This document shows, in pieces, positions 217 through 55,068 of a DNA stretch of 64,000 nt. The stretch's first letter is position 1; each line of letters begins with the position of its first letter. Both the position numbers and the translations under genes were made by a program. The DNA lies in contig NC_068561.1 in assembly GCF_022201045.2 (NCBI RefSeq), positions 18,106,501 through 18,170,500 of the forward strand, in the 5' to 3' direction. The notes below the pieces were generated by a model. It had not been told where the DNA came from and searched no databases. It saw nothing but the letters and a program-made list of their open reading frames with translations. This DNA comes from Citrus sinensis. Lineage: Eukaryota; Streptophyta; Magnoliopsida; Sapindales; Rutaceae.

Positions 217-662
217 CTCTCTCTGTCTCTGTCCCTCTGCCCCTCCACGGAAGCTCTTAACTCGTGTTCTGTCCGATTCGACTCAGTGAGTTAGTCCGCT
301 TCATGCTAAGGTAACGTTCGCTTAACTGCCCCCTTTAGTACCCACAGCTTTCTTTCGGACTTGAAATGTTCCCATTTCTCAAGTATTTTTCTTTTTTTCT
401 CTGTTTCAGCTTCTCAAAGTCTTTGGATCTGAAGAATTCCTGCTTGGATTCATAATTTGTTTAGCTGAAAAGTTTGTCCTTTGAGCTCATAACTCATTAA
501 AAAAAAAAAAGTTCTGATCTTGAATTTACAGAGTCAGATCTTGCTTGTTCATTTGTCTTTTTCAGTGTCCTGATTGAATTCTTCTGCTCATATAAATCTT
601 TCCTAGTTTAAAATTCCTGTCAACTAAGCTGATTTGTTAAAAAGAAAAAAAATCAGCTTTTT
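125..662 (+). promoter_or_regulatory. FERONIA core promoter and 5' leader
   Basis: A TATAAA motif lies at 125-130. About 55 bases later comes a CT-rich tract (about 179-225) dominated by (CT)n, typical of plant 5' leaders just after the start of transcription. A leader intron is plausible from the donor AAG|GTAACG near 311 to the acceptor TTTCAG ending near 409; a second acceptor-like TTTTTCAG lies near 566. No transcript is available to decide, so the leader structure is inference. Confidence 0.45.
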
Positions 663-3350
663 ATGTCCATGAAGAACTTAAATAAGCAATTTCTTGCTAC
701 CCTCTTCATCTTTCTTTCCTTAGCTTCTGCTATTCATGTCACCTTAGCTGCTGATTACATACCCAGTGAACAAATTCTCTTAAATTGTGGTGAATCCTCA
801 ATACTCAGTGATGACGATAAACGGAGTTGGACTCCTGATATCGGGTCAAAGTTTTTGTTATCAACTAAGGATTCCACAACCTCCAAAGCTGCCACTCAAG
901 ACCCTTCTACACCGACAATTCCTTACATGACCGCTAGGGTTTTCCGTTCTGAGTTTACCTACAGTTTCCCTGTTGTTGCTGGTCGTAAGTTTGTGCGGCT
1001 TTATTTCTATCCGAATTCATACAATCGGCTTAATGCAACCGATGCTCTCTTTTCGGTGAGTACCGGGCCTTTTACTCTTCTTAAGAACTTTAGTGTTGCT
1101 CAAACTGCAGAAGCTTTGAATTATGCTTATGTTATTAAGGAGTATGCGATTCCTGTCGATGGGGAAACTTTGAATATCACGTTTAGTCCTATGAATGTTT
1201 CAAATGCGTATGCGTTTGTGAATGGGATTGAGGTGATGTCAATGCCTGATATTTATAAAAATACTGATGGAGATTTGATGATTGTGGGTCAAAGTTCTCC
1301 TATCTCCATTGATAACACTACTGCTCTTGAGAATGTTTATCGGTTGAATGTGGGTGGAAAAGATATCTCCCCTTCAGGAGATACAGGTCTGTTTAGGTCT
1401 TGGTATGACGACCAGCCATACATTTTTGGAGCAGCGTTGGGGGTGCCGGTGACAATTGGTCCAAATATGACGGTTAGGTACCCGAGTAACATTCCTTCCT
1501 ATGTTGCACCTGTTGATGTCTACGCCACCGCCCGACAAATGGGGCCAAATCCTCAAATCAACTTAAATTACGAGTTGTCTTGGGTTTTCAGTGTTGACTC
1601 AGGATTCTCTTATCTGGTTAGGCTTCATTTCTGTGAGGTTCTTCCAGAGATAACCAAAATTAATCAGAGAGTCTTTGACATTTTGCTCAACAATCAAACT
1701 GCTTTTCCTGCATTTGATGTGGCTGGGTTGACAAATGGTAATGGAATTCCATTATATCAGGATTTTGCGGTTTTTGTTCCAGGTAATGGACCTCAGAAGG
1801 ATCTATGGCTTGGGCTACATCCAAATGTGGCTTCAAAGACACAGTATTATGATGCAATCTTAAATGGAGTTGAGATATTCAAATTAAGTGATCCAAATAG
1901 TAATCTTGCTGGGCCAAATCCTATCCCTGCTCCTAAACAGGATGTAGTTGATCCATCTTTGGCTCTACCATCGAGTTCCTCGGGTAATTCAAAGCAGAAA
2001 GCAATAATTGGTGGGGGTGTTGGTGGAGGAATTGCTCTAGCCCTTGTCGTTGGCTTTTGTGTTTTTGCTGCATCTCGTTGCCGCAGACAAGGGAAGGATC
2101 CGAGCTCAAGTGATGCGCAATCTGGTTGGCTTCCTCTTTCACTCTATGGAAATTCACACTCTGCTGGATCAGCCAAGACAAACACTACAGGAAGTTATGC
2201 ATCTTCCCTTCCTTCAAATCTTTGCCGCCACTTCTCATTTGCTGAGATAAAAGCTGCCACTAACAACTTTGATGAAGCTCTACTTCTTGGGGTTGGAGGC
2301 TTTGGCAAAGTGTACCGTGGAGAAATCGATGGTGCAACAACTAAAGTTGCTATCAAGCGTGGGAACCCACTCTCTGAGCAAGGTGTGCATGAGTTCCAGA
2401 CTGAGATTGAAATGCTCTCAAAACTTCGACACCGACACCTTGTTTCATTGATTGGTTACTGTGAAGAGAACTGTGAAATGATACTTGTATATGATTACAT
2501 GGCTTATGGAACACTGAGGGAGCATCTTTACAAAACTCAAAAGCCCCCTCTGCCATGGAAGCAAAGGCTTGAGATATGTATTGGGGCTGCTCGAGGTTTG
2601 CACTATCTCCACACTGGTGCCAAACACACGATTATCCACAGAGATGTTAAGACTACCAATATTCTTTTGGACGAGAAGTGGGTGGCAAAGGTTTCTGATT
2701 TTGGTTTGTCAAAAACAGGTCCTACGTTGGATCACACTCATGTCAGCACTGTTGTGAAGGGTAGTTTTGGCTATTTGGACCCAGAGTACTTCAGGCGTCA
2801 GCAACTAACAGAGAAGTCTGATGTTTATTCTTTTGGTGTCGTGCTCTTCGAAATCCTGTGTGCCCGACCAGCCTTAAACCCAACTTTGCCCAAGGAGCAA
2901 GTGAGCTTGGCTGAGTGGGCTGCTCATTGTCACAAGAAAGGAATACTCGAACAGATTATGGACCCTTATCTCAAGGGAAAGATTGCACCTGAATGCTTCA
3001 AAAAGTTTGCCGAGACAGCAATGAAGTGTGTATCTGATCAAGGTATTGAGAGGCCATCAATGGGCGATGTGCTGTGGAACCTAGAGTTCGCTTTGCAGCT
3101 ACAAGAGAGTGCAGAGGAAAGTGGCAAAGTTCTTGGTGGAGGAATGGACATTGAGGAAGGAGCATTTGATGTCGACTGTAAAGGTAAGAAAGATCCCAAC
3201 GCATGTTCAGGTTTTAATGGCAACATCACAGATTCGAGGAGCACTGGAATGAGCATGAGCATAGGTGGCCGGAGCTTAGCAAGTGAAGACTCAGATGGGT
3301 TAACACCAAGTGCAGTATTCTCACAGATCATGAACCCCAAAGGGCGATAG
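663..3350 (+). CDS. FER: FERONIA receptor-like kinase (CrRLK1L family)
   Basis: This single-exon gene encodes 895 residues, the same length I recall for Arabidopsis FERONIA. It is a plasma-membrane receptor kinase that, in the known family, binds RALF peptides and pectin and controls cell-wall sensing, growth, fertilisation and immunity. Seen in order: a signal peptide (about 1-30), a malectin-like ectodomain (about 35-410) with many N-glycosylation sites, a Gly-rich start of the membrane segment (about 446-472), a juxtamembrane part, and a kinase domain (about 535-810). The kinase has the glycine loop GVGGFGKVY (about 543), VAIK lysine (about 563), HRDVK catalytic loop (about 658), DFG, and an activation loop ending GYLDPEY, so it should be active. 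The tail ends ASEDSDGLTPSAVFSQIM, as in FERONIA rather than THESEUS or HERK. The start was chosen because the signal peptide follows directly. The lack of coding introns is typical of CrRLK1L genes. Confidence 0.97.
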   Translation: MSMKNLNKQFLATLFIFLSLASAIHVTLAADYIPSEQILLNCGESSILSDDDKRSWTPDIGSKFLLSTKDSTTSKAATQDPSTPTIPYMTARVFRSEFTYSFPVVAGRKFVRLYFYPNSYNRLNATDALFSVSTGPFTLLKNFSVAQTAEALNYAYVIKEYAIPVDGETLNITFSPMNVSNAYAFVNGIEVMSMPDIYKNTDGDLMIVGQSSPISIDNTTALENVYRLNVGGKDISPSGDTGLFRSWYDDQPYIFGAALGVPVTIGPNMTVRYPSNIPSYVAPVDVYATARQMGPNPQINLNYELSWVFSVDSGFSYLVRLHFCEVLPEITKINQRVFDILLNNQTAFPAFDVAGLTNGNGIPLYQDFAVFVPGNGPQKDLWLGLHPNVASKTQYYDAILNGVEIFKLSDPNSNLAGPNPIPAPKQDVVDPSLALPSSSSGNSKQKAIIGGGVGGGIALALVVGFCVFAASRCRRQGKDPSSSDAQSGWLPLSLYGNSHSAGSAKTNTTGSYASSLPSNLCRHFSFAEIKAATNNFDEALLLGVGGFGKVYRGEIDGATTKVAIKRGNPLSEQGVHEFQTEIEMLSKLRHRHLVSLIGYCEENCEMILVYDYMAYGTLREHLYKTQKPPLPWKQRLEICIGAARGLHYLHTGAKHTIIHRDVKTTNILLDEKWVAKVSDFGLSKTGPTLDHTHVSTVVKGSFGYLDPEYFRRQQLTEKSDVYSFGVVLFEILCARPALNPTLPKEQVSLAEWAAHCHKKGILEQIMDPYLKGKIAPECFKKFAETAMKCVSDQGIERPSMGDVLWNLEFALQLQESAEESGKVLGGGMDIEEGAFDVDCKGKKDPNACSGFNGNITDSRSTGMSMSIGGRSLASEDSDGLTPSAVFSQIMNPKGR

Positions 3351-4549
3351 AATCACAAGCGTCCTTGCCAGAATCCGGTAATGCAACTGGATTGCTTATC
3401 AACTTGTCAGTTTACTTTGGCTTATTCATTTATTTACCAATAATCATTTTTCTCTCTTTCCCCCCCCCCCCCCCCCTCTTCACATGTTTTGATCATGTCA
3501 CAATTTGTATCTAGTATCTAAGATTAAATGAAAGAGTGTAAAAGCAATTTGTTTTCACTTCATTTCAACGAGTATCATGTCACAATTTGTATTTTGTTAT
3601 TTATATATATTGTCTATATATTTTTCATAGCACGCTTAGTTTCATATAGCCGGTTGTGATTGTGATAGGACAACCGTTTGATGACTCAAATCTCAAATCT
3701 GAAAAGAATCAACAGTAGGAGTGTATAATAAAACCTATGTGCCCTCTGCCATAAAATTCGGCTGATTACATGTGAGTGGGGGCCTTGTTAGTGGATCTTA
3801 TAGAAAGGCCATTATGCAAGGCAACGACCACATTCAGTATCCTTTCTATTTATTTCCCATTTTAATAAGATTACTAGAAATATAAAAATTAAAAAGAATT
3901 GGGGGGGCAGGGTATTCTCAGATAAGTTGGCAAACGTGGGAAGGGGCTAGTGGAGAGATGGCTTGGGGTCCTCTTTATACGCGGCTATATCTTTTCTTGA
4001 ATAATTGACCTTTGTGACAGAGCAAGGTCCTTGAAATATATAATACTAATTTTTTATTCTGCTTTTTTGATTTTCACCAAGATTTTATATTGTTAGTTTG
4101 ATTTGACTTTAATGTTGGCACGTAAGGTACTTGATTCTGGACACAACGTTTAAATTAGGAAAGTGAGACCACTCGTTTTATGATAATTTCATTTCGCAAC
4201 TGCCAAATAAAAGGTCACAAAAAAAAAATAAATAAATAACTTGTAATGAACCGCATGTGAACTTGTACCAATTCACAGCTATGATTCAATGAGTGAAAAC
4301 TCTTTCCAACAGAAGCAAATCTGGCATAAACATGGAGAGAAAAAAAATGGAAAATAACTTAATTTGGTCCAGGCAAATTCTTTAGAAAAGGCACCGCCAC
4401 TTGTAACATTTAAAGCAGAAACAACCGCACAGATAAGGAATAACAGTACATCCACCCACTTTCTTTCCTTTAGTGGTTCCAGCCAGACCGAAAGGAGGAG
4501 GAAAGAGTCAACAATGCGTAGGAAGCTGTATGCATTAATGTCTTTTTCT
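3351..4549. other. Intergenic spacer after FERONIA
   Basis: This holds the 3' end of the FERONIA transcript and spacer DNA. A run of 17 C lies at 3460-3476. An AATGAAAG near 3528 could be a polyadenylation signal. The overlapping open frames at 4279-4633 on both strands resemble no family I know and have no gene-like context. Nothing else is recognisable. Confidence 0.5.
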
Positions 4550-8630: not shown

Positions 8631-8876
8631 GATGTAAGAATGTTTGGTGCAAAATAGTAAACAAGTACTTAAGACCATTAACTACGTTCCATCGAAGAAG
8701 CTTCAAACACAAACATTCAACATTAACATAAAAACGTCCCGCCCTTGCAACTCCTCCCAACACCATTCTAAAACACCAACGTCTGCCCTCCCCAAAGCAA
8801 GTTAAAGAAAATAGATAGACAACACACACAACATATTTCAATAAATGCTCCTTTTTCTGCAATATCCTAACAACCT

Positions 8877-10829
<1,953 letters not shown>

Positions 10830-11179
10830 GACTCTTCAAGGGATTATTAAAATTGAAACTACAACGAACCTTAAGACCTGCGAAACTATAAACAGATCCA
10901 TATACGGCTTCTTAATTAGACTATCCAAGCCTGTAAAACAACAAATTATTTGATCTACTGCATCTGAATAAAAAAGTTCAAATCAAAATTTCGAAAATAC
11001 TAAAAATATAACTACGCAAACTGACCTTGCGCGGCAGAGAACAGGATCGGAGAGCGATAGCGTCGAGAAAGCGAAACGGTGAAGCAGATCTAGGTCGTCA
11101 AGCCGCCCCCGCCTCGCTCCTCTATCAACCCCTTGCTTTGTTGTCCTTCAACACAAATATCGTCGAGAAAGAACGTATC

Positions 11180-13050
11180 GTGTTCTTTTGCATATATTTA
11201 TATACGTGGCAAAATTTATTTTTCCCCATTTTTTTTGTTATTTCTTGCAATTTTTTAATTATCGTTCTTATCCAGTTTATTAATATTGTTTGTTTTGTTA
11301 GTCTCGTTATTTAATTTAGGGTGCTATAACTATTTTATTTATTTATTTATTTATCTGGAAAGGAACTTGCGGTGCTACTACTGGCTTTGGAATTTATATT
11401 CCTTGTTTTAAAGGTTACCTCGATTACTCAAAGTTGAATTCTTGTTGAATCACATGGATTCCCATGGTCGTGGCTACAAAAGTCAACTTATTCGTATAAA
11501 AGATATATTATATACTATATTTATTTTCTTTAAATTCATAGTTGATCTTGATGCCCAACGACAAGAGTGAGATCAAAAAAAATATATAAACTTTAATTAT
11601 AAATTATTAAGGGCTGATTTTGAAAATTTTATAGATTCCGTAGGAAGGGAGATTGGATTCCAGACTATAATCAATTTCGGTTTTCGGATATGAGATACTT
11701 TTATGTGTGTACTACAACTCTTAAAACATATAATAAGTTATAAGTCATACTAATCAATTCACAAAGAATGTGTTTGAAACATAGCATTATAGAAATTAAA
11801 ATAATGTTCGTATTAACTTACTACCAATGATATGTTTAATAAAATTTAAGAGATCATTGTGGTATTATAATGTTATAAATATAAATTATTTTAGTATTAG
11901 ATAATAATATAATAAATAAAACATAAAAATATCATATGATATTATTACTTTTTTTAATTATACTCTATTGAATATAACATTATACAATTATATATTTAAC
12001 AATTAATATACAAATAATTATTTAATACAATTAATAGTAATTTTAAATAATATTCAGTTAGTATTAGTATAAAATTAATATAGTATAGTGTAACATCAAA
12101 TGCTGTATAACATTATTATAATATAATTTTAATATAATGCAATATTATACAATACGCCTGCATTAAATAATATAATACAATGTAACATACACACCTTATT
12201 GATAAAATAATATCTCTTATGAGGTATAAGACCTTGGTAAGACATAGAAATTTAGAAACAGTGAGGTTTCTATCCACTCAAGATAATATTTTAAAAGGGT
12301 ATTTGGTCTTTGATAAGATCATAAATTCTAAAAAGTCTCTTGAAGAGTTACAGGTTGAAAATGATGAAATGTCTTTACTCACACTTGAAATTGTGGAATC
12401 GTAAAGAATATAGTCCCGTGGGTTTTTACTGAACAAAGGTCAAATACGATTATTGCAAAAAGTATGTAGCTAAACACATGACCAATTGATATGCTTCATA
12501 GGCTGTAAATAACCATTATCATTTGTATATTTAATTTAATTATCTTACACAGATTTTAATTTGTATTTAGTTAAAAAGTTTTTTAATTTTTTATTGAAAA
12601 ATACATAAGTAATTATTACTTTATTAGTATAATTCATTAAATAATTCTTAAAAGTAAAAATCGCAAAAAATACAATTGGCCACCTACAGTGATATGTGCA
12701 CGGAACATAACACAAAAGAACAACTCACTATCACCAAAAGATTAAAAAAAATAAACAAATAAAATAACTACATGACAAAAAATTCAGTACAAGATAAAAA
12801 AATTTCTCATCTTTTGTGTATTTTATACTATTTTCCACACATATAACTCCAAAAAAAAAAAAAGAATATTCTTTTGCCGCCGAAGAGGTTTTCAGTGACC
12901 AGGCACAGCCGCCAGGATATTGCAACAACGTCAAGCCTCAAAATTTGCAGAACTTGTCAAACCACGGAATAAAACATATGGTACACAATAAATAGATTTC
13001 TCTAGTCATAATCCATAACGCAGTTCAAATATTAACATTAATTCCCCTTT
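11180..13050. other. AT-rich spacer between the tandem E2 genes
   Basis: Very AT-rich DNA (especially 11500-12200) separates the two duplicated units. An open frame at 12219-12404 (+) encodes 61 residues including LKGYLVFDKIINSKKSLEEL; I do not recognise it and no gene context supports it. The 3' flank of copy 2 begins near 13080. No transposon ends were found. Confidence 0.4.
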
Positions 13051-13358
13051 TGTTTTTTGCAAATTTTATCTAATGATAGAATTAGTCAAAAGAGGAGGCA
13101 TTTGTATGATGTAAAATGTTCGGTGCAAAAATAATGAAAGTATTTTTAGGACAACAAACTACATTGAATGATAGGAGTTTCAAACAATAAACATTCAACA
13201 TTAACAAAATCGTCTTGCCCTTGCAACTCCTCCCCAAACATCCTTCCTCATTACTAAAATACAAAACATCCCCTTCCCGAAGCAAGATTGAAGAAAAAGG
13301 AGAAAAAAACACAACATATTTCATATAAATGAGTTCCATTTCTGCAATATCCAAACAA

Positions 13359-15302
<1,944 letters not shown>

Positions 15303-15699
15303 GATGCTTCAACGGATTATTAAAAGTTAAAGCCACAACAAACCTAGGATCTGCAACACTGTAAGCTAAGCCACAAACGGCTACTTAATACAACGATCCA
15401 AGCTTATAAACAACAAATTATTTAATTTATTTTAATAAGGTAAAGAAAATAAATTTACTTAAAAATAATGACGAAATTGACCTTGTGCGGCGAAGAAGGA
15501 GATCGGAGGGCAATAGCAGTGAGAAAGGGGAACGGCTTCGGAGCAGATCTGCGGCGGCTACTGGCCGTCCCGACCTCTCTCCTCTACAATCTCTTGCCTT
15601 TGTTATTCAAGGCAAAAGTCGTTGAGAGAGAAAAATCCACCTTGTTTTACATGATTATATACGTGGCAATTTTTTTTAAAAAAAATTTCTTTTAGGTTG

Positions 15700-18471: not shown

Positions 18472-21400
18472 ATGGAGGATGAGAAGAAGAAGAAGAGAAA
18501 CAAGAAGAAGAAGAACAAGCAGACCAAGACGACGACGGATGATGTGGCCGTCGGCGAGGATCCGAATCACGTGACCAATGGACAGAAAGATGACGTTCGC
18601 AGCCAAGCTTCTGAGCCAGCTGACATTCAAAATGTTCAAGTGGACGCCGATAGACACCAATCCAATGGTGTTGAAAGCGTAAGTTTTGCTTTTAACTGAT
18701 TTGGGATTTACATAAATTTATATTTTCAATATGTGATTAAGCTTCTATTATTTATTTATTTATTTTTAACCGCATCATTACATTTCTGAATTGCTGCATT
18801 TTGCATAACAATTACACTTCATTAACTGAATATTAGATATATGTTTTTGGTTTAATATTGACAGATATTTACAGTAAAAAAAATTGATTTTTTTTTTTTT
18901 AATGAGTGACTGCTGAGTGCAGAGATTTTTTTTTTTTCTTTTTTACAGGCAAACTTAGCTGAAGCTGAGAGACAGCATTTGTTGCAAAGAGAGGCAATGG
19001 TTGTTTTGAATTGCTGTCTTTTCTTTCTGCTCTTTTTCTAAGTCACATAGGTGAAGAATTTATATTTTGGTTTTTGCAGGCCATTTTGGAAGAGACAGTC
19101 AAACATTTACGAAATGAAAGAGAATCTCATATACAGAAAGAGGTAATGTAAATTGAATCCAGTTACATAATTAAGCAACAATTTAATTTTATATGTGGGA
19201 ATAGTAGGCCATTCAGTTGATATAGATTAGATGCTTCTTTCTCATCGTTCTTCAAATTACCTGTCTTTCCTTTGATCCTCACTGTGAACCATTAAGTTAT
19301 TGTGTTCTGACAGGCTACCTTGGAAGGGACAGTCCAACAATTACAGAATGAATGTGATTTATACAAAGAGAAAGTGGTAATTTCAAGTCTAATCTAGTTA
19401 TCTATTTATCTTGACAGTTAAGCTACAGAATCCCTGTTTTTGTATATATTCATTGTGACAACACCCTTACTCTATGTTTCTCAGCAGGCTACCTTAGAAG
19501 AGACAATCCAGCAATTACAGAGACAAAATGATTTACGCATGCAGAAAGAGGTGAAAAATATATTATTTTCATTGGGTTGATTTCTGGTATCTTCCAGTTA
19601 TTTAAAAAATACCAGTGTGTATTAACAATCTTTAATTAAGGACCTTCCTGTGCCACTTCCACCCAACACCCCCCCCCCCCCCCCCGGGCCCCCACGCAGG
19701 TGAAACACATAACATTTCACTGTTTCTTACAGGCTACCCTAGAAGAGACCATCAAACAACTGCGAAATCAAAATGATTTACACATACAAAGAGAGGTAAT
19801 ATTAGCTTAATCTAATTGTCCGAACGGAAAGAAAAATATTTTGATAATATTGATCTGGATCATTGGACGTTCTCCATTTAGACTTGCAAGTGGTTTGTAT
19901 TTTTCTTATATGTTTGCTAGCGAACTGACCTATCTAAGTGGAAATTTACAGGGTGGTCTAGAGATGAATATTGCAAACTTACAGAGTGAAAAAGAATTTT
20001 GGCTTCAAAAAGAGGTACTTTGTATTGGATGATAGGCTATATTGTATTATGTCTTTCTCTCTTTTCTTTCTTTAATATTAGAGAATTATATTTCAACAGC
20101 TGGCAATTTTATGATTTTCCAGAAACTTAAATAGAATTGTAAGCTATATGTTGCTGCATGCAGGCTGCCTTGGAGCAGAAAATTAGTCAGTTACGGGATG
20201 AAAGTGCTGCACTGAATATGAAAAGGGTAAAGTTCTCACTCTGATGAATTTTAAGCAGACCAATTGAAAGATCTTCTCTTTTGCTTCCCTTTATGAATAT
20301 ATTACTTCTTCTTTGTCATGGTGTCTCCTTGTATATGAATGTGTGCTATTTCCTTGAAATTCCGGTATGCAATAAGGCTACTTTGATTCCACAGGCTAGC
20401 TTGGAGGAAAAACTAAAACTTTTAGAGGCAGACAAAGATTCCTGGACTCAAATGGAGGTAGCAAAAGCTCCTTTTTATTTTTGGTGGTACTAGTACAGCT
20501 TTGCGCCCCCCCCCCCCCCCCCCCCCGGGCCCCTTCCTTTTCTCTTTTAACCTTAAATTGTTTGCCTGGTTGATGGTCTTTGATATAGGCTTTATTTGTA
20601 TCATACAAAATACATGAATGATTTTGAATTAATTTAGCAATTTAATGAGAAAAACTGATGAATATTTGATTTGAAGGGAGATTTGTCATAGTGATATTGA
20701 GGGCAGCATGTGGCTTTCGATCGGACAGAATGGACAAATAGGATTTATTAGCCAGCCCCAGCTAGTTTGAGATTTAGTCAAGTTGTTGACAGGAGGGCTT
20801 GGGTTTTAATTGGAATCTGGTCTGTTTTGAAGCTCCTGAAAAGTGGCTTTTATTTAATGTACTTTTTCATCTTATTATTTGCAGCAACTACTGGTTTTTT
20901 CTTTCCATCCTCAATTTATGTCCTGTAAATTCTAGTTAAGGCACTTATTTTATACTCCTAATTTTCAATATCTTTACTTTTACAGAGTGTATCCAAAGAA
21001 ACAATTGCTGGCCTGAGTGTTGATATTACCCAGCTAAGGATGCAGGTACACAGGATACTCAATTAGTTTATTGTAACATAGTTTTCCTATCCCAGAGCAT
21101 GGTAAATTGCTTGCTGATCGAAAAGAACAAGGCCTTTCTTTTTCATATTTCTCTATATATTCTGATATGAGAATAAAAACAAAGTCTGGCAGGTAGTGGA
21201 GTTGGAAGAATCTCGTAATAATCTCCTACAAGAAAACCGCCAACTGAAAGAAAACGTATCCAGTCTGCGGTCACAGCTTTCATCTGATGAAAGCAAGAAG
21301 GTTTGTTCTTAAGACCTCCAGAACTTTGGGGATTCTCTTCATAAATACGTGTTGCTTGGTTTAATCTGGAATGCAGTTGGTCTTTTCCCATATTTGTTGC

Positions 21401-22409
21401 AATTTGAGAACAAAACGTTCAAGTTTAAGATTGTGACGAATTGTTTCTTATGTTTGGTTATGTATCAAATCTTTCAGAAGAAAATTACTTTTGATGGTAA
21501 AGAACTTATTTGTTTTGATTTAAGCAATGATAGGGAATGTTGTGATGTCCAATGAATAACATCTTGCTTTCTGCAGTTACAGCATGCTACTTCAGAACAA
21601 AAGGACTTCAGTACTCAGATTGAAGCAGCAGGTGCACTGATTGATAAATTGATCACAGAGAACATAGAGCTTGTGGAGAAGGTACTTGTATGCTTTTCTC
21701 CAAATATATGATGATAGTTTGCTAGTTCTTTTCGTTAATGCTGATGGTTTTTCAGAGGTCTGTTGCTCGAATTGATTTATTGAGTTATGCATGTACATAC
21801 CCAATTAAGTACTGTCATAATGAATTGTGTGGATCATAGTTTAAGTTATTTTTCTTTTCCAACTTTTTTATCCTTTTAATAGTAGTTATGATGCTCCTGA
21901 TTTAATCTTCTCCATGCATAACCACACCTCCATTCTTGGACTACATTATATCTCAGGTGAATGATTTGTCTGTTAAGCTTGATAGACAGAGTGTGGCAGC
22001 TGGGCTTTCTTCAGCAATTGGAAGTGATGCAGTGACTGCACTCACCAGTGATACTGAACCCATGTCTGAATCCAGTGATAATATGTCCTCATTGAACAAT
22101 AGGTTGGAAACCCAGGGAGTGGTAGCAGTCAAAGAAGACAGAAATGGAATTAATGGTGTGCATGCAGATCCCCCACCTTTAGTTTTAAGCTCTTCAGAAG
22201 CTGAATACTCCGGAGAAATTGTCCAAATACCGTTGGATGATAAGGAGGTTCAGGATTTGGAGTTGCAGGTTGTAGAAAGTTACACTGACAAAGTGGCTGC
22301 TGTGCCGCTGACAGATGCTCCACTGATCGGTGCTCCTTTCCGATTAGTATCATTTGTTGCGAAATATGTTAGCGGGGCTGACTTGGTTAACAAGAATGCT
22401 TCAAACTAA
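18472..22409 (+). CDS. Coiled-coil protein with tandem 63-nt exons
   Basis: Thirteen exons, all phase 0, give 472 residues: 18472-18678, 18949-18993, 19080-19142, 19314-19376, 19488-19550, 19733-19795, 19952-20014, 20164-20226, 20395-20457, 20986-21045, 21193-21300, 21577-21681, 21957-22409. The first exon encodes a strongly basic Lys/Asn-rich start (MEDEKKKKRNKKKK). Exons 3-9 are each exactly 63 nt and encode a 21-residue coiled-coil repeat of the type [AG]xLExxIxxLxxExxxxxxKE, for example ATLEETIQQLQ and ATLEETIKQLR. Exon 2 (45 nt) and exon 10 (60 nt) look like shortened relatives. The long last exon is acidic, ends near PFRLVSFVAKYVSGADLV, and could contain an amphipathic helix. I do not recognise a named function; a structural or tethering role is a guess. 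Exon 2 ends at GAG|GCAATG, a GC donor where its sister exons have GAG|GTAATG. Confidence 0.88.
19669..19695. repeat. Poly-C run with GGGCCC in intron 5
   Basis: Seventeen C are followed by GGGCCCCC. A near-identical arrangement (21 C followed by GGGCCCC) lies in another intron of the same gene at 20506-20533. Confidence 0.85.
20506..20533. repeat. Poly-C run with GGGCCC in intron 9
   Basis: Twenty-one C are followed by GGGCCCC, matching the tract at 19669 in the same gene. Confidence 0.85.
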
Positions 22410-23115: not shown

Positions 23116-25150
23116 TTATGGGGTTTGAGTATTTGAATCCTTTAACTTGTCCTCTGATGATGGCTGGTTTTCTGAATCAGATGGTCGAATGTCCTCGATC
23201 ATCCTAACGACTTCTTCCATTGTAGGTCTCATGTCTGGCACTTTTGCTACACAGGACATTGCTATCTGAAGCATTTGCACCATCTCCTCTTCAATATTCT
23301 CATATCTCATTAGTTCTACATCAAACACCTCAGAAGTCCATTCCTCTCGGACAACCGACTGAACCCATCTTGGAAGGTCGACCACGTCCTCATGCCCTGG
23401 TGCTTGGATTGGTGCTTTGCCAGTCAGCATTTCTAGGAGAAGAACACCAAAACTGTAGACGTCAGATTTTTGGGTAGGCTTTTTTGTTTCAATCACCTCA
23501 GGGGCTCGGTAGCCTGCACTTCTTGATGGGACAGTTGGGGTATTCATTAGCGGAGTTAAGCCAAAATCAGAGATGCATCCCTGAAGGTCTTGGCTGAGAA
23601 GCACATTGGAGGACTTGATGTTGCCAAGGATGAATTTCCCCCCAACTGCAGCATGAATGTGAGCAATGCCCTTTGCACTTCCCAGGGAAATCTTTACTCT
23701 GGATTCCCAGTCTAGTGGCGTTCGTCCAATTCCCCTGTTTCCTGTAGTCCATATAAAAAATTAAGGATTAGGAGCAAAGAAAAAGAATCACAAATCTTTA
23801 CAGAACAGTGTTCTTTCATCTCTGATATGAAAGCGAGGAATTGGAAGCAAAAGAAAAGAAGATTGGACGATTCATACCATGCAACAATGCAGAAAAGCTA
23901 CCAGCCTCTATGAAGTCATAAACAAGGAGTTTCTCATCCTTGGAGAAGTAATAAGCACGAATAGGCACAACATTAGGATGCTGACTGAGCCTCCCCACAA
24001 CTTCCATTTGTTGTTCAAATTCTCTTTTCCCCATCACTACTTCTTTTAACCTCTTCACAACCACTGTTGTTCCCTCCTCCAATATGGCCTTATAAGTTGT
24101 CCCATAGCTTCCCTTTCCTAGAACTTCTGCTGAAGCTCGTAGTAAGTCCTCGAGATCAAAATTATATGAACAGCCTTCAAAGAAAACCAACTTGTTTTTC
24201 TCAGCCTCCTGTACCCCACTCCCAAAGTCTTCTTTTGGTTTCTCATTCCTAATACCCTTTGATTTTGTGGCAGCAGTACCTTCGCTGTCCTTTTTCTTCA
24301 AACAGCAAAAAGCTATCATGAGAAATAGAAGGAACAGAACAGCGGAACCCCCAATTGCAATGGCAACTATAGCCCCGGTACTAAGTTTTTCCTCGGAGCC
24401 CTCTCTTGGTTTTGGGAGTACTGTTGGTGGAGGGGGGAAGTTAGTTGCGGATGGACTAGGTGCTGGGGGAACTGTAGAGCATCGGTTTAGAGGCGGTCCA
24501 CACAGCATAGAGTTCCCTTCGAAGGAGGACGGAGGAAACTTCTGGAGGGCAAGTGGAACTGAACCATTGAGGTGGTTGTAGCTCAAATTTAAATGCCTAA
24601 GCCTTGAAAGATTAAAATTAGGGATAAATCCTGTGAGGGAATTGTTTTGGAGGTTTAAACCTACGAGATGGCTTAAATTTCGAATCGAAGCTGGAATATT
24701 GCCTGTAATGGAGTTGAAGGATAGATCAACCCAGTTAAGTTGGGGTGAGAGGGAGGAAGGGATATTACCCGAGAAGTTGTTGTTTTGAAGATATAAGAAG
24801 CGAAGGGAAGAAAGTGAGAGTACATTAGATGGAAGATCCCCACTGAGATGGTTTGATCGAAGGCTGAGGATCATGAGTGAGTCCAACTTCTCAAGTGTGT
24901 TGGCTGGAATGGGACCATACAGCCCAACACCAGGGAGCCGGACGGCAAGCACACGAGAACCATTCTTGGTACAAGTGATGCCAACCCAGCTAGTGCAAAC
25001 AGAGGTAGAAGAATTCCAGTTCAGTTTGCGGGCATGAGGAACATTGGCAGCGAAGTCAAGGAGAGCCTGTTTGTCTGAATTCAGGTCGGCAATCATTTGG
25101 GGAATCAGCCAAATGAAAGATAACGCTGCAAAAACACAGCGTAACTTCAT
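23116..25150 (-). CDS. LRR receptor-like kinase, probable pseudokinase
   Basis: Two exons (23878-25150 and 23116-23741, split codon G|GA) encode 632 residues, close to the usual size of the At3g08680/At5g58300 group (LRR class III). Seen: signal peptide (1-21), LRR N-terminal cap with two Cys, about five to six leucine-rich repeats (70-200), a Pro-rich spacer, a membrane segment (about 259-283), and a kinase domain from about 343. The glycine loop GKGSYGTTY and the VVVKRLK lysine are present and DFG is kept (ISDFGLTPL), but the catalytic HRD loop reads [10 protein letters not shown], so the catalytic Asp is missing. The family is therefore named probably inactive; such proteins usually signal as scaffolds or co-receptors. 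A 5'UTR intron probably runs from 26612 down to 25223. From memory, the closest Arabidopsis relative is At3g08680. Confidence 0.95.
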
Positions 25151-25222
25151 AGTGATGCCAACGAAACTTCTCCAGCTGAGGCTATGAATGTGAGTGTAGT
25201 TTCATGAATTCTTCAAGTTCCC

Positions 25223-41700: not shown

Positions 41701-42802
41701 TGAGGTTCTATTTTCTTTAAGAGAGTGTTTTTTTTAGGCTGTGGGGGAATAACTTCCTCACTCGAACATATATAATTAATTAATATCTTCTTTGCTTTGG
41801 TGATCACTAATTAGCATTTGTTATCCTCTTCCGCCATTACATAAAGACACATCAAAATCCGATATATTAATTGTAAATATTGTTCTTAAATTTTGTTTTT
41901 GATAAGTGAGTCATATAATAACATATATACCGGGTTAGTAGAACTTTGGAAAAGGAGGTAAGGAGACTAAGGTGGAAAAAAAAATCAACCATTCTTGAAA
42001 GCCGGCCAATTGCCAAAATTGATTTGCCAATTATATTTTAATTTTCGGTTAAATGGTAAAACTTCTTCATTATTTTACACGTCTTGGCTTATCTATCCCA
42101 TCATTACTAGTTCATTCAGTGTAGCTCAATCATTCAACTGAAGAGACACGACGCATTTAATCATCAAAAAGTCACGTGGCAGACAACGAAGCTACAAATC
42201 AAAGATGAAACTAATTCTCTCATCACTTTCTTAGCTAAAGATTCCCTCTAGAAGGAAACCACCAACAAAATCACACGCAATATTGCCCCCCAACTTACGC
42301 AATAAGATTTCTTGTCGCCCTCCTCACCAATTCCAATTGCGCACGACTCACGTCGTCTCACGACTCGGTCGTGTGGTTTGTTCATCTTACATTTAGAACC
42401 AGTCCAAATTCTTCCCTACAACATATTTAATATAATATAATATAATATAAAAGACACCTTCCATGCATCTTCTCTGATAGCCCCATCATTGCCCTTTAAA
42501 TCTCCCTGCGGCTAAATGCGCCGTAAATTTTCAGCTTAAAATTCACGAAATCTTTGTCAAATCTGTCATTTTCGAAAGTGTTTGTTAAGATTATTATTCC
42601 ACATGCATGATGACAAATTGCTAGACTAGACTTTGATTTTAAATAAATTTTCATTTGGCAAAAAAAAAAAAAAAAAAATTTCAACAAGTCTTTCCCTGGT
42701 CATTATCATGTCTTATCCATTAATCTTTATTGCTTGATTTCTTTTCTAGGAAACCGAGGGAAAAAAAAGAAAAAGAAATAAGCACATACGGTATAAAAGG
42801 CA
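38709..42802. other. Intergenic region upstream of the acid phosphatase
   Basis: No gene is recognised in this 4-kb spacer. Present: a GGGGCTGTTT(T)n start near 38841 with TGACTTAATTGACTTAATT-like repeats that resembles a hAT-type terminus without a matching partner; a 29-C run at 40033-40061; a TAATA pentamer repeat at 42427-42451; and GTCGTCTCACGACTCGGTCG-type short repeats near 42352. The final few hundred bases should hold the acid phosphatase promoter. Confidence 0.35.
40033..40061. repeat. Poly-C run (29 C)
   Basis: This is the longest homopolymer C run of the window, in intergenic DNA, followed by ACAAAGCAA. Confidence 0.9.
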
Positions 42803-43263
42803 ATGATGCAGCCTATAAAGGAGGTATTATTGTTCTTATTGCTTGCAATATTTTCCAAGGCAACCGGCACGAAGGACTATCCTAACTCTAGGTATAGCAT
42901 GCCTGGTGACGGCGCGAGCTATTGCCTGAGCTGGAGGCTGGCTGTTGAGGCCAACAATGTGCGTGCATGGCGCACGGTCCCCACTCAGTGCTTGCGCTAC
43001 GTCGAGAGTTACATGATCGGCGGGCAGTACGACCGAGACGTCGAGTTGGTCGTCGAGCAAATCTTGAGCTATGTCAATGAAGTTGTTCTTTCTGGTGACG
43101 GCATGGATGCTTGGATTCTCGATGTCGATGACACTTGCATCTCCAATGTTTATTACTATAAAGGAAAACGATACGGGTATATTATTAATTGATAAAATGA
43201 ATAATTTTTTTCCCCTCCTTTCCTTGATGGGATTTTTTATATATATTTTGGCTGATTTGGTGA

Positions 43264-47356: not shown

Positions 47357-50197
47357 CTAAGAAACAGAATACCTCCTACTCCTGCCAGTCTTCCCGTCTC
47401 CTCGAGATTTTCGGCTGGATTTTTGACGTTTACCTCCAGTTGGACCATTAAATATTCCAATCCTTCCAATCCCTTTGGAGATTGAAGTCAAGAAAGTTTT
47501 TCCATTTCCTGACTTATCTATCATGCCTTGTTTCATGAACATTTGCTCTTTCTCCAGCTCACTCAGCCTCACTCTCATTCTTGAAATTTCAAGTTTAAGT
47601 TCTCGGTTTTCTCTCCTCAAAGAAGCATAGTTATCACGAGGGGACATGGCTGCACTTGGGACACCACTGCTCATTCTCTGTGACAGGAATCCATCTCCCG
47701 AACTTCCTGATAAGGCATTCTGCAAACGTAGTTGCTCGAAGTAGAGGACTCTAACCGCCATTTGCACTGGGAGTCTATCATTCTGTGCAGCATGATTGGA
47801 GGCTTCTTGGGAGAGTTTTTGGCAGTCTATGAACTTGCAGAGCTTCTTGCATTCATGTTCTGTTAACATTGGATGAGCCTGAGCAAGAAAATGAAACAGT
47901 ACTAGTCAGAACTGAAACAAAAAGTGAGTACAAACTGATTTAAAGCTAGACCTCAATTACAAAGCATATCAAAATTCAAAAAGCAAAATAATAAGATAGG
48001 ACAATTCATGAAACAAGACCTACTTTTTGATATCATTAACTGTTCTTGCTAAAGACTGGTGTACAGAGAACATAAATGTTTTGGAATCAACAGAGTTGTC
48101 ATCTTCATGATCTTACCTTCAAATATATGTCAATTGCTCTATAAAGCCCATCATCAATGACACGAGAATAATCAGGCAATATCTCTAACATAGCGATGAA
48201 TTTCTGCAAACTCAAGTAAGGATCGGGAGCAATTTCTGCAAGGTAGGCATCAATGAGCCGTCCAACTTTTAACAAAGAACCATGACCTGGAGAACCAAGG
48301 CCTTCTGATTCATACCCACAATTGTCATTGTCTTCGTCTTCAATCCGCTGTAGGAAATTTATCAGTATCCGATGGACAGTATCAACATCAAATAATGAAT
48401 CCCCGGTCTGGATAGATGGTATAAGCAGATCATCAAGCGAAACCATTTCCAACCGAAAAGCAATCCTCCTTTCGAGTTCAAGCTTACAGGCAATACTAGC
48501 ATCCACCATGATTCCCATCCTTAACATCCCAAACAGAAAATTCTGTGGAATGGAAGAGCTTTTCTCATTTGGCAGAAGACTTACAAGAGTTTCCAATATA
48601 GTCCTCTGGTCATTTTCTGCCATGGTACGATTTGATTTCATCCTTGCCGGATTCCAAATTTGAAATTTTCCAATACCCTTTAATGATGCTTGAGCATAAT
48701 GCATTAGAGATGCAGTAATGCTATCAGGTCTAATGCCTGCTCTTCCCATTGCACATACAACTCTCTGATAATAATCAATTCCTAGTGCTGAGAGATCCTC
48801 AATCCACCACTCAAGACACCCACTTTTAAGCTCAGCAGACTCACCATTGCAATCCAAACGGGACAATCCTGACACTAGTTGCTCCTTGCAAGCATTCACG
48901 GCAACAGCCTCGACACATCTGTTCACAATCCCCACCTCCTCTGCTACAGGAGGTAGCATCTCACAAATTGAAAGCACTTCCACAGACTTCTCGAGACTTT
49001 GTACTACAACCTCATTCAAATAAACTTCAGTCCTCGCAACGAGGTTTTCATCTCGGTAGTCTTCAGTCATTTCTAAGTACTCTGCAGCACAGCGCAAACT
49101 GGCAACATTGGTAGTTGTGATCTCAAAGTTCATGCCATAACAGAATTTCACGGCAAGCTCAAACGTCTGCGGTCCACCTGGTATGTTATGGAGCTCCAAT
49201 TTCGAACTATTGGAATCCTTAGCATCTGCAACCATTTTCCGAATCTTTCCACTTCGCGATACCAGAGGAAACTTTGCATCCAAAACAAATAACACAAATT
49301 TAATTAGATTGCTTGCCATGAAACCAAACCAAGTTCAAGAAGAATATAAAGCAGATACCAATGCATTACAAACAAAATTGCTTCAATTTGTAAGTTGTAA
49401 CTGCTTGACAAAGATCTTACCTTGTGAAGTAGAAAAGATTCTCCATCAACAACAATTGTAATGTCTCCGGCAACATCTGAAAAGATTCTGCATGCAAAAG
49501 GATTCAACATTATAACCATTCTCAGATGAAAATTAGCACAAATAAACTGATTGTCCAAAAAAATCAATGGACCAAACCAGAGAAAGTGGGAAAATCAACG
49601 TACTTTATAATCTCAGATCCTGAAACCCTTTTCATTTCTCTAAAGCTGAGACATTTTTGATCTACCATGTTAACAATAATTCAAGATTTATAATTTTAAA
49701 CCAAAAAGAGTTGGAAGAATGTTGTGAAGAAGAGAATTATCAGCTCAGTACAGAACCTAGAAATTCTATTTTTACTTATATTTTTTTATTTTTAAAAAAC
49801 TAAATGGAAGCTCAAAGAAACATACTGAAACAACTAAATAATTATCTATTAAAAAAAGAGAAAGAAAAATCATCTACTAATCCAAGCACTGAACCCCACG
49901 TTTATAGCTAACAGAAGATGTACAGGACAAGAGAAACACGCACACACACACACTAAATAACTAACTTAAAAACAAGACAAAACACACCCACACCCACACA
50001 CACACACAGATATATATATATAATTGTATTCAGATTAACTATATAGTTTATTAGTAATTACTAAAACTGATAAAAAAGCACAAACATGTGTTTTTATTAT
50101 GGTACCGAGTGGTAAAGGAGTTGTTGCAGAACTTGGGAGCTGGAGAACGGCTAGTACTGCTAGAAGAAGAGAAAGGGCTGTCTGAAGAAGAAACCAT
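47357..50197 (-). CDS. BTB/POZ NPH3-family protein
   Basis: Four exons (50106-50197, 49421-49487, 48117-49271, 47357-47878) encode 611 residues. NPH3/RPT2-like proteins are plant-specific adaptors at the plasma membrane, working with phototropins, PINOID-like kinases or CUL3 ubiquitin ligases. Seen: a Ser-rich start, a BTB domain (about 35-135) with DITIVVDGESFLLHKFPLVS and FCYGMNFEI, LRCAAEYLEMTEDYRDENL, then the NPH3 domain with WWIEDLSALGIDYYQRVV, FLFGMLRMGI, LERRIAFRLE, VDTVHRIL, VGRLIDAYLAEIAPDPYLSL, DDGLYRAIDIYLK, CKFIDCQKLSQEA and HAAQNDRLPVQ. A C-terminal coiled coil (SLRRENRELKLEISRMRVRL) follows. The conserved Tyr of the NPH3 signature lies in GLYRAIDIYLK. From memory the nearest relatives are At3g08570/At3g08660. 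Intron 1 (49488-50105) has CA-repeat and TA-repeat stretches near 49941-50025. Confidence 0.95.

Positions 50198-52121: not shown

Positions 52122-55068
<2,947 letters not shown>

Follow-up and report, generated by a model that had tools for sequence, protein, structure and literature searches.

A gene on the forward strand of Citrus sinensis carries seven consecutive coding exons of exactly 63 nt (exons 3 to 9), all open and in phase 0, which are homologous to one another in register and each of which contributes 21 residues to a predicted coiled coil. The array most probably arose through old tandem exon duplication under a filter for whole heptads, yielding a coiled-coil rod that is probably constitutive. 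Exon length, intron phase, and coiled-coil register match neatly here in a natural gene, and each exon thus adds a set length to the rod.

The gene model was rebuilt from the sequence alone and comprises 13 coding exons at positions 18472-22409 of the window (the whole 64-kb stretch of DNA that was analyzed), encoding 472 amino acids (Table 1). AG stands immediately before and GT immediately after each of the seven 63-nt exons, and the introns between them are short, ranging from 111 to 182 nt. Phase 0 holds for each of the 12 introns, and every internal exon is divisible by three, including those outside the 63-nt array. The first-pass annotation had described seven consecutive 63-nt phase-0 exons in the range 18949-21045. 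Their lengths, phases, and AG/GT borders were borne out, and the range coincides exactly with the stretch that the 45-nt exon 2 opens and the 60-nt exon 10 closes. Tandem exon duplication would leave neighboring exons that match in length and have symmetric phases, as the seven exons here do (63 nt, 0-0). The encoded protein would begin with a basic N terminus and end in a C-terminal tail, separated by a predicted coiled-coil rod of ~260 residues whose central 147 residues derive from the seven tandemly duplicated exons. Toward the end of the tail, positions 22320-22388 encode a hydrophobic/basic stretch (PLIGAPFRLVSFVAKYVSGADLV), a candidate helix for membrane or partner binding.

Table 1. 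Coding exons of the Citrus sinensis rod gene, with positions in the window
Feature	Position	Strand	Remarks
Exon 1, coding part, 69 aa	18472-18678	+	Lys-rich start MEDEKKKKRNKKKKNK..., polar stretch after; donor GTAAGT
Exon 2, 45 nt (15 aa), rod start	18949-18993	+	45 nt if GC-AG intron; 51 nt (to 18999) with GT donor
Exon 3, 63-nt module AILEETVKHLRNERESHIQKE	19080-19142	+	Length, in-register homology, register
Exon 4, 63-nt module ATLEGTVQQLQNECDLYKEKV	19314-19376	+	Possible donor 3 nt upstream
Exon 5, 63-nt module ATLEETIQQLQRQNDLRMQKE	19488-19550	+	Tandem acceptor CAGCAG directly 5' (19482-19487)
Exon 6, 63-nt module ATLEETIKQLRNQNDLHIQRE	19733-19795	+	Identical to exon 5 at 15/21 residues
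Exon 7, 63-nt module GGLEMNIANLQSEKEFWLQKE	19952-20014	+	Length, in-register homology, register
Exon 8, 63-nt module AALEQKISQLRDESAALNMKR	20164-20226	+	Length, in-register homology, register
Exon 9, 63-nt module ASLEEKLKLLEADKDSWTQME	20395-20457	+	Length, in-register homology, register
Exon 10, 60 nt (20 aa), putative register adaptor	20986-21045	+	Starts at b; next exon starts at a
Exon 11, 108 nt (36 aa), rod	21193-21300	+	Start register a; five heptads plus one residue
Exon 12, 105 nt (35 aa, five heptads), weaker rod part	21577-21681	+	Start register a
Exon 13 with stop, 150 aa	21957-22409	+	Final residues of the rod, then tail ending PLIGAPFRLVSFVAKYVSGADLVNKNASN

The coiled coil was evaluated by COILS-type scoring, with a reconstructed weight matrix and Gaussians, and by a period test that is independent of the matrix. 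Scoring of the 472-residue model predicts a rod at residues 67-327 (score above 0.5), in line with the coiled coil proposed in the first-pass annotation, with a mean score of 1.68 compared to 1.30 ± 0.04 in 60 shuffles; exon 12 scores barely above 0.5. Heptad periodicity runs over several turns, and the power at period 3.5 lies above that of 2000/2000 shuffles. When the exons are scored singly, b is the best start register in all seven 63-nt exons; their register is thus fixed, in agreement with the earlier claim that each adds 21 residues, or three heptads. Exon 10 likewise starts best at b, and exons 11 and 12 start best at a. Exons 3 to 11 nevertheless share one register, because the 20 residues of exon 10 shift it from b to a; exon 10 therefore looks like a register adaptor for exon 11 and would act as one in the rod. 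A one-residue register discontinuity is found at the border between exons 11 and 12 (ratio of one-register to free score, 0.68).

Within the modules, the d positions are columns 3, 10, and 17 (Leu, Leu, and mixed or often aromatic residues, respectively), and the a positions are column 7 (Val/Ile/Leu), column 14 (mostly polar), and column 21 (mostly Glu). Conserved hydrophobic residues had been reported at columns 3, 7, and 10 and often at 17. Counting VILMFWY as hydrophobic, the first three columns hold in all seven exons; column 17 is weaker than stated, being hydrophobic in only four of the seven, the same as columns 16 and 18. With Cys included (VILMFWYC), hydrophobic residues occupy 27 of 42 core positions versus 13 of 105 positions elsewhere in the modules. 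Of the six core columns, three are weak, being mixed or polar in composition (a columns 14 and 21 and d column 17), and 15 of the 42 core residues are non-hydrophobic, meaning that stability of the coiled coil is not assured. Length and register make each module three heptads, but its strong hydrophobic seam is confined to columns 3-7-10. Dimerization or oligomerization of the rod would rely on Leu at d and Ile/Val at a, the a layers at columns 14 and 21 being mostly polar.

Are the modules related by descent, or do they resemble each other only in the way that heptads do? In gapless alignment, the mean in-register identity of 63-nt exon pairs is 8.24 of 21 residues, compared to 1.82 of 21 when residues are shuffled within exons, and none of 20000 such shuffles reached the observed value. 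As a stricter control, each exon was rotated by whole heptads, which retains generic coiled-coil similarity. Rotated exons share 4.29 ± 0.71 identical residues, and the observed value was reached by 3 of 2187 rotations, the number expected since uniform rotations leave the relative register unchanged. Module pairs also share a mean of 37.7 of 63 bases, versus 18.8 for codon shuffles. The similarity of the seven exons therefore goes beyond composition, and they are homologous in register. Using a profile of the seven exons against six-frame pieces of both strands, no further or decayed module was found in the 64-kb window. The seven exons score 33 to 42 bits against this profile, a match by construction, and the best non-module match in the window reaches 14.8 bits (52258-52302, reverse strand).

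The flanking 45-nt and 60-nt exons had been taken for trimmed relatives of the modules, a view that is not supported: homology is not detectable by the in-register profile of the seven modules, which neither exon 2 nor exon 10 matches. MAFFT places exon 10 against the modules with a shift of one third of a module. Exon 2 ends much like a module (...LLQRE versus ...HIQRE) and has a donor similar to the one after exon 3, and a common origin with the modules is thus possible. The signs of kinship between exons 2 and 10 and the array are confined to phase, position, and register.

Exon 2 also has an ambiguous 3' border. All introns of the gene are GT-AG save the one after exon 2, where the 45-nt form needs a GC donor (GAG/GCAATG, 18994-18999) and the alternative 51-nt form ends at a weak GT donor (ATG/GTTGTT). 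The putative GC donor is one base apart from the donor of exon 3 (GAG/GTAATG). Scored alone, exon 2 does best from start register f (1.45), a start compatible with exon 3 if exon 2 is 51 nt but not if it is 45 nt; for the 45-nt form, the start has to be a, with a score of 1.33. Register alone does not discriminate between the two lengths. If the upstream AG of the CAGCAG acceptor were used, exon 5 would become 66 nt long, gain one Gln, and break the heptad register in silico (ratio, 0.66).

How could such an array have been built? Under the tandem duplication that we favor, a single ancestral 63-nt phase-0 exon would have given rise to the others in several rounds of duplication, for which unequal recombination between the flanking introns is the likeliest mechanism. 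With equal intron phases at both ends and a unit of 21 residues, each added copy would have left both frame and heptad register intact. Copies of 63 nt could thus be fixed, and copies of other lengths would have been selected against. The exon borders lie at an identical place in each repeat, which is best explained by duplication of the exons together with their flanking introns. The present array is most likely a fixed rod that is spliced constitutively, constitutive splicing being our assumption.

A reading compatible with old tandem duplication is that the array behaves as an evolutionary accordion, the number of 63-nt exons differing between plant lineages, and we entertain it tentatively. 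Exons 3 to 6 form a closer group, with 9 to 15 of 21 residues identical in within-group pairs, and exons 7 to 9 are more diverged (5 to 7 of 21), suggesting that the duplications took place at different times. However, no pair appears recent enough for current turnover. The dS values, which are rough given ~12 synonymous sites per 63-nt exon, are at least 1.0 in 15 of the 21 exon pairs, 5 of them saturated, and the lowest is 0.26 (exons 4 and 5); no clearly recent pair was seen among the 21 pairs compared in this way. The exon tree groups exon 8 with exons 3 to 6 and exon 7 with exon 9 (support, 82/78), but none of its four inner branches is starred, and the tree thus fixes no order of duplication events. 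Should orthologues vary in exon number, or should the exons be skipped in a regulated way, the gene would provide a plant system for relating rod length to function. Doubtful in our view is a modular molecular ruler, in which rod length would be set in three-heptad steps by the number of 63-nt exons kept, through regulated small-exon retention or lineage-specific gain and loss, and exons 2 and 10 would serve as invariant register adaptors at either end.

Another question is whether splicing alone might tune the length of the rod, by regulated skipping of 63-nt exons in whole three-heptad steps, which we regard as unlikely. Skipping was simulated by joining the flanks of each contiguous block of exons 3 to 9 and comparing, within 28 residues spanning the new junction, the score in one register with the free score. 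All 28 block skips retain the frame and a single register in silico (ratio of at least 0.90), and the lowest absolute score among them is 1.06, obtained with exons 6 to 9 removed. The first-pass annotation had argued that loss of any array exon would be harmless to frame and register, which is right on paper. Outside the array, removal of exon 11 leaves the register intact (1.00), but the register is lost without exon 2 (0.71), exon 10 (0.77), or exon 12 (0.73). However, skipping that is safe for frame and register is a by-product of the duplication history itself and hence no evidence of use in the cell. Many plant introns are recognized by intron definition, and this mode, together with the shortness of the introns between modules, also speaks against regulated skipping.

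Published work on small exons bears on the same question from both sides. The 63-nt modules fall in the class of 51- to 100-nt exons whose retention in Arabidopsis depends partly on GRP20, which binds GA-rich motifs; exons of this size make up 48 of the 238 skipped in grp20 flowers and 140 of the 265 skipped in leaves (PMC10808074). The seven exons are 62 to 65% purine, each with a purine run of at least 6, compared to 38 to 49% in the 12 introns. Such richness is compatible with GRP20-type retention, yet it is expected from a coding sequence rich in Lys, Glu, and Gln. Exon skipping with a 14-residue effect, which by our arithmetic equals two heptads, is listed for the MADS genes STK (in the K-box) and FLC in PMC3266260, but the STK event is unconfirmed in the translatome data of that source. 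In the four columns of a table in PMC2674458, exon skipping and cryptic exons together make up 10.0 to 20.2% of events, which likewise weighs against skipping as a regular means of tuning.

The introns of the array were compared for a trace of duplication, which would be helpful to the tandem duplication reading but is not required by it. Only 2 of 28 pairs among introns 2 to 9 have z > 3. The similarity of introns 5 and 9 consists of a 24-nt poly-C/GGGCCCC tract alone, introns 2 and 7 are borderline (z of 3.4, their score being matched by the best of 40 shuffles), and the introns are otherwise not alignable. We therefore rejected intron similarity as a duplication trace; its absence is expected if the duplication events are old. 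The same lack of mutual alignment, apart from the poly-C tract, would suit a repeat coiled coil that was first encoded by a single exon and received its introns later at equal repeat positions. This is very improbable, as many independent insertions would be needed at the same phase and the same place in the repeat, and loss of intron similarity is expected anyway at such divergence. That the modules are not homologous and look alike only as all coiled coils do is scarcely credible: coiled coils are compositionally biased, and the protein weakly matches unrelated coiled-coil Pfam families, but an in-register identity of 8.24 against 4.29 ± 0.71 for heptad-preserving rotations, along with the equal length, phase, and border position of the modules, argues against it.

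Searches for relatives returned little beyond the gene itself. Among the best candidates scored at E up to 0.001 and, in another search, at E up to 10, no second locus with the array was found in the genome of the same species (299.7 Mb, 11 contigs). Exon 13 was found there only at its own place, and exons 11 and 12 had no second place, in both cases among the best candidates scored at E up to 1. With exon 13 as the query, 45 pattern hits in a prokaryote collection and 20 in viral contigs were obtained, none of which was confirmed, as expected for a plant gene. Seven Pfam families matched the protein at E up to 1, in a search that mostly filtered weak matches above E ~0.1; all seven were under their cut-offs, the best being TSC22 (0.0033) and Cep57_CLD_2 (0.015). 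Five PDB sequences (E of 0.064 to 0.92) were weak generic coiled-coil matches. As these generic matches are all that Pfam and PDB gave, we treat the product as a rod protein without a named family here. No published 63-nt coiled-coil exon array was recognized in the open-licence literature searched.

The array is a fresh example of a known growth mode of repeat proteins, in a protein without a named family, and it illustrates a logic of exon duplication that is already established. Tandemly duplicated exons as a class share with the Citrus array adjacent, similar, symmetric exons of equal length; work by Kondrashov and Koonin (2001) and Letunic et al. (2002) reportedly ties such duplication to alternative splicing. 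Mouse RHAMM/HMMR is a coiled-coil protein with 21-residue repeats, which are not known to be encoded by one exon each. It shares with the Citrus modules a repeat of 21 residues within a coiled coil but is an unrelated animal protein, and it was not found as a printed precedent for 21-residue repeats in the open-licence literature searched.

Closest in logic are the 54-bp/45-bp exon arrays of fibrillar collagens, in which a rod is likewise assembled from same-length exons that hold whole structural repeats and grows by exon addition. PMC4450265 describes, for fibrillar collagen, a 57-exon ancestral domain and 23 exons of 54 bp in one contiguous block, and it also mentions 63-bp exons for collagens VI, VII, and XIX. 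The collagen unit builds a Gly-X-Y triple helix, whereas the Citrus unit is three coiled-coil heptads, present seven times. No Gly-X-Y repeat occurs in the module sequences, and we claim no homology between the two. Among plants, MIKC MADS proteins come closest: their K domain is a coiled coil lengthened by exon duplication (PMC10178880). One K-box motif corresponds to exactly two tandem micro-exons (PMC7714060). In SEP3, the K3 region has polar residues at a positions (E161 and N168) beside Leu at d (PMC6018978), much like the a positions of the Citrus modules. The K domain differs from the Citrus array in its shorter exons, its few copies, and its place in a transcription factor, and neither SRF-TF nor K-box is among the seven Pfam families matched by the rod protein at E up to 1, where matches above ~0.1 were mostly filtered.

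The neighborhood of the gene holds several other coding regions. An open frame at 633-3350 encodes a malectin-like receptor kinase (Pfam Malectin_like and kinase), and an LRR receptor-like kinase in two open pieces lies on the reverse strand just downstream of the rod gene (23116-25201). Farther along are open frames for an acid phosphatase (HAD IIIB; 42797-43192, forward strand) and an NPH3-family protein (47357-49334, reverse strand). Families such as NPH3 and the malectin-like receptor kinase, along with the structure of the rod gene, point to a plant origin. Upstream of the rod gene, 8631-11223 and 13108-15677 are diverged copies, 77 to 84% identical in three pieces, representing a local tandem duplication. 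The tracts in introns 5 and 9, at 19669-19692 and 20506-20533, read poly-C and then GGGCCCC, with 24 of 24 aligned bases identical, and they are set in a window with a GC content of 35%. Five more C or G tracts of 17 to 29 nt begin at 3460, 14971, 33185, 40033, and 61411, and these C/G tracts are possibly a repeat or an assembly feature.
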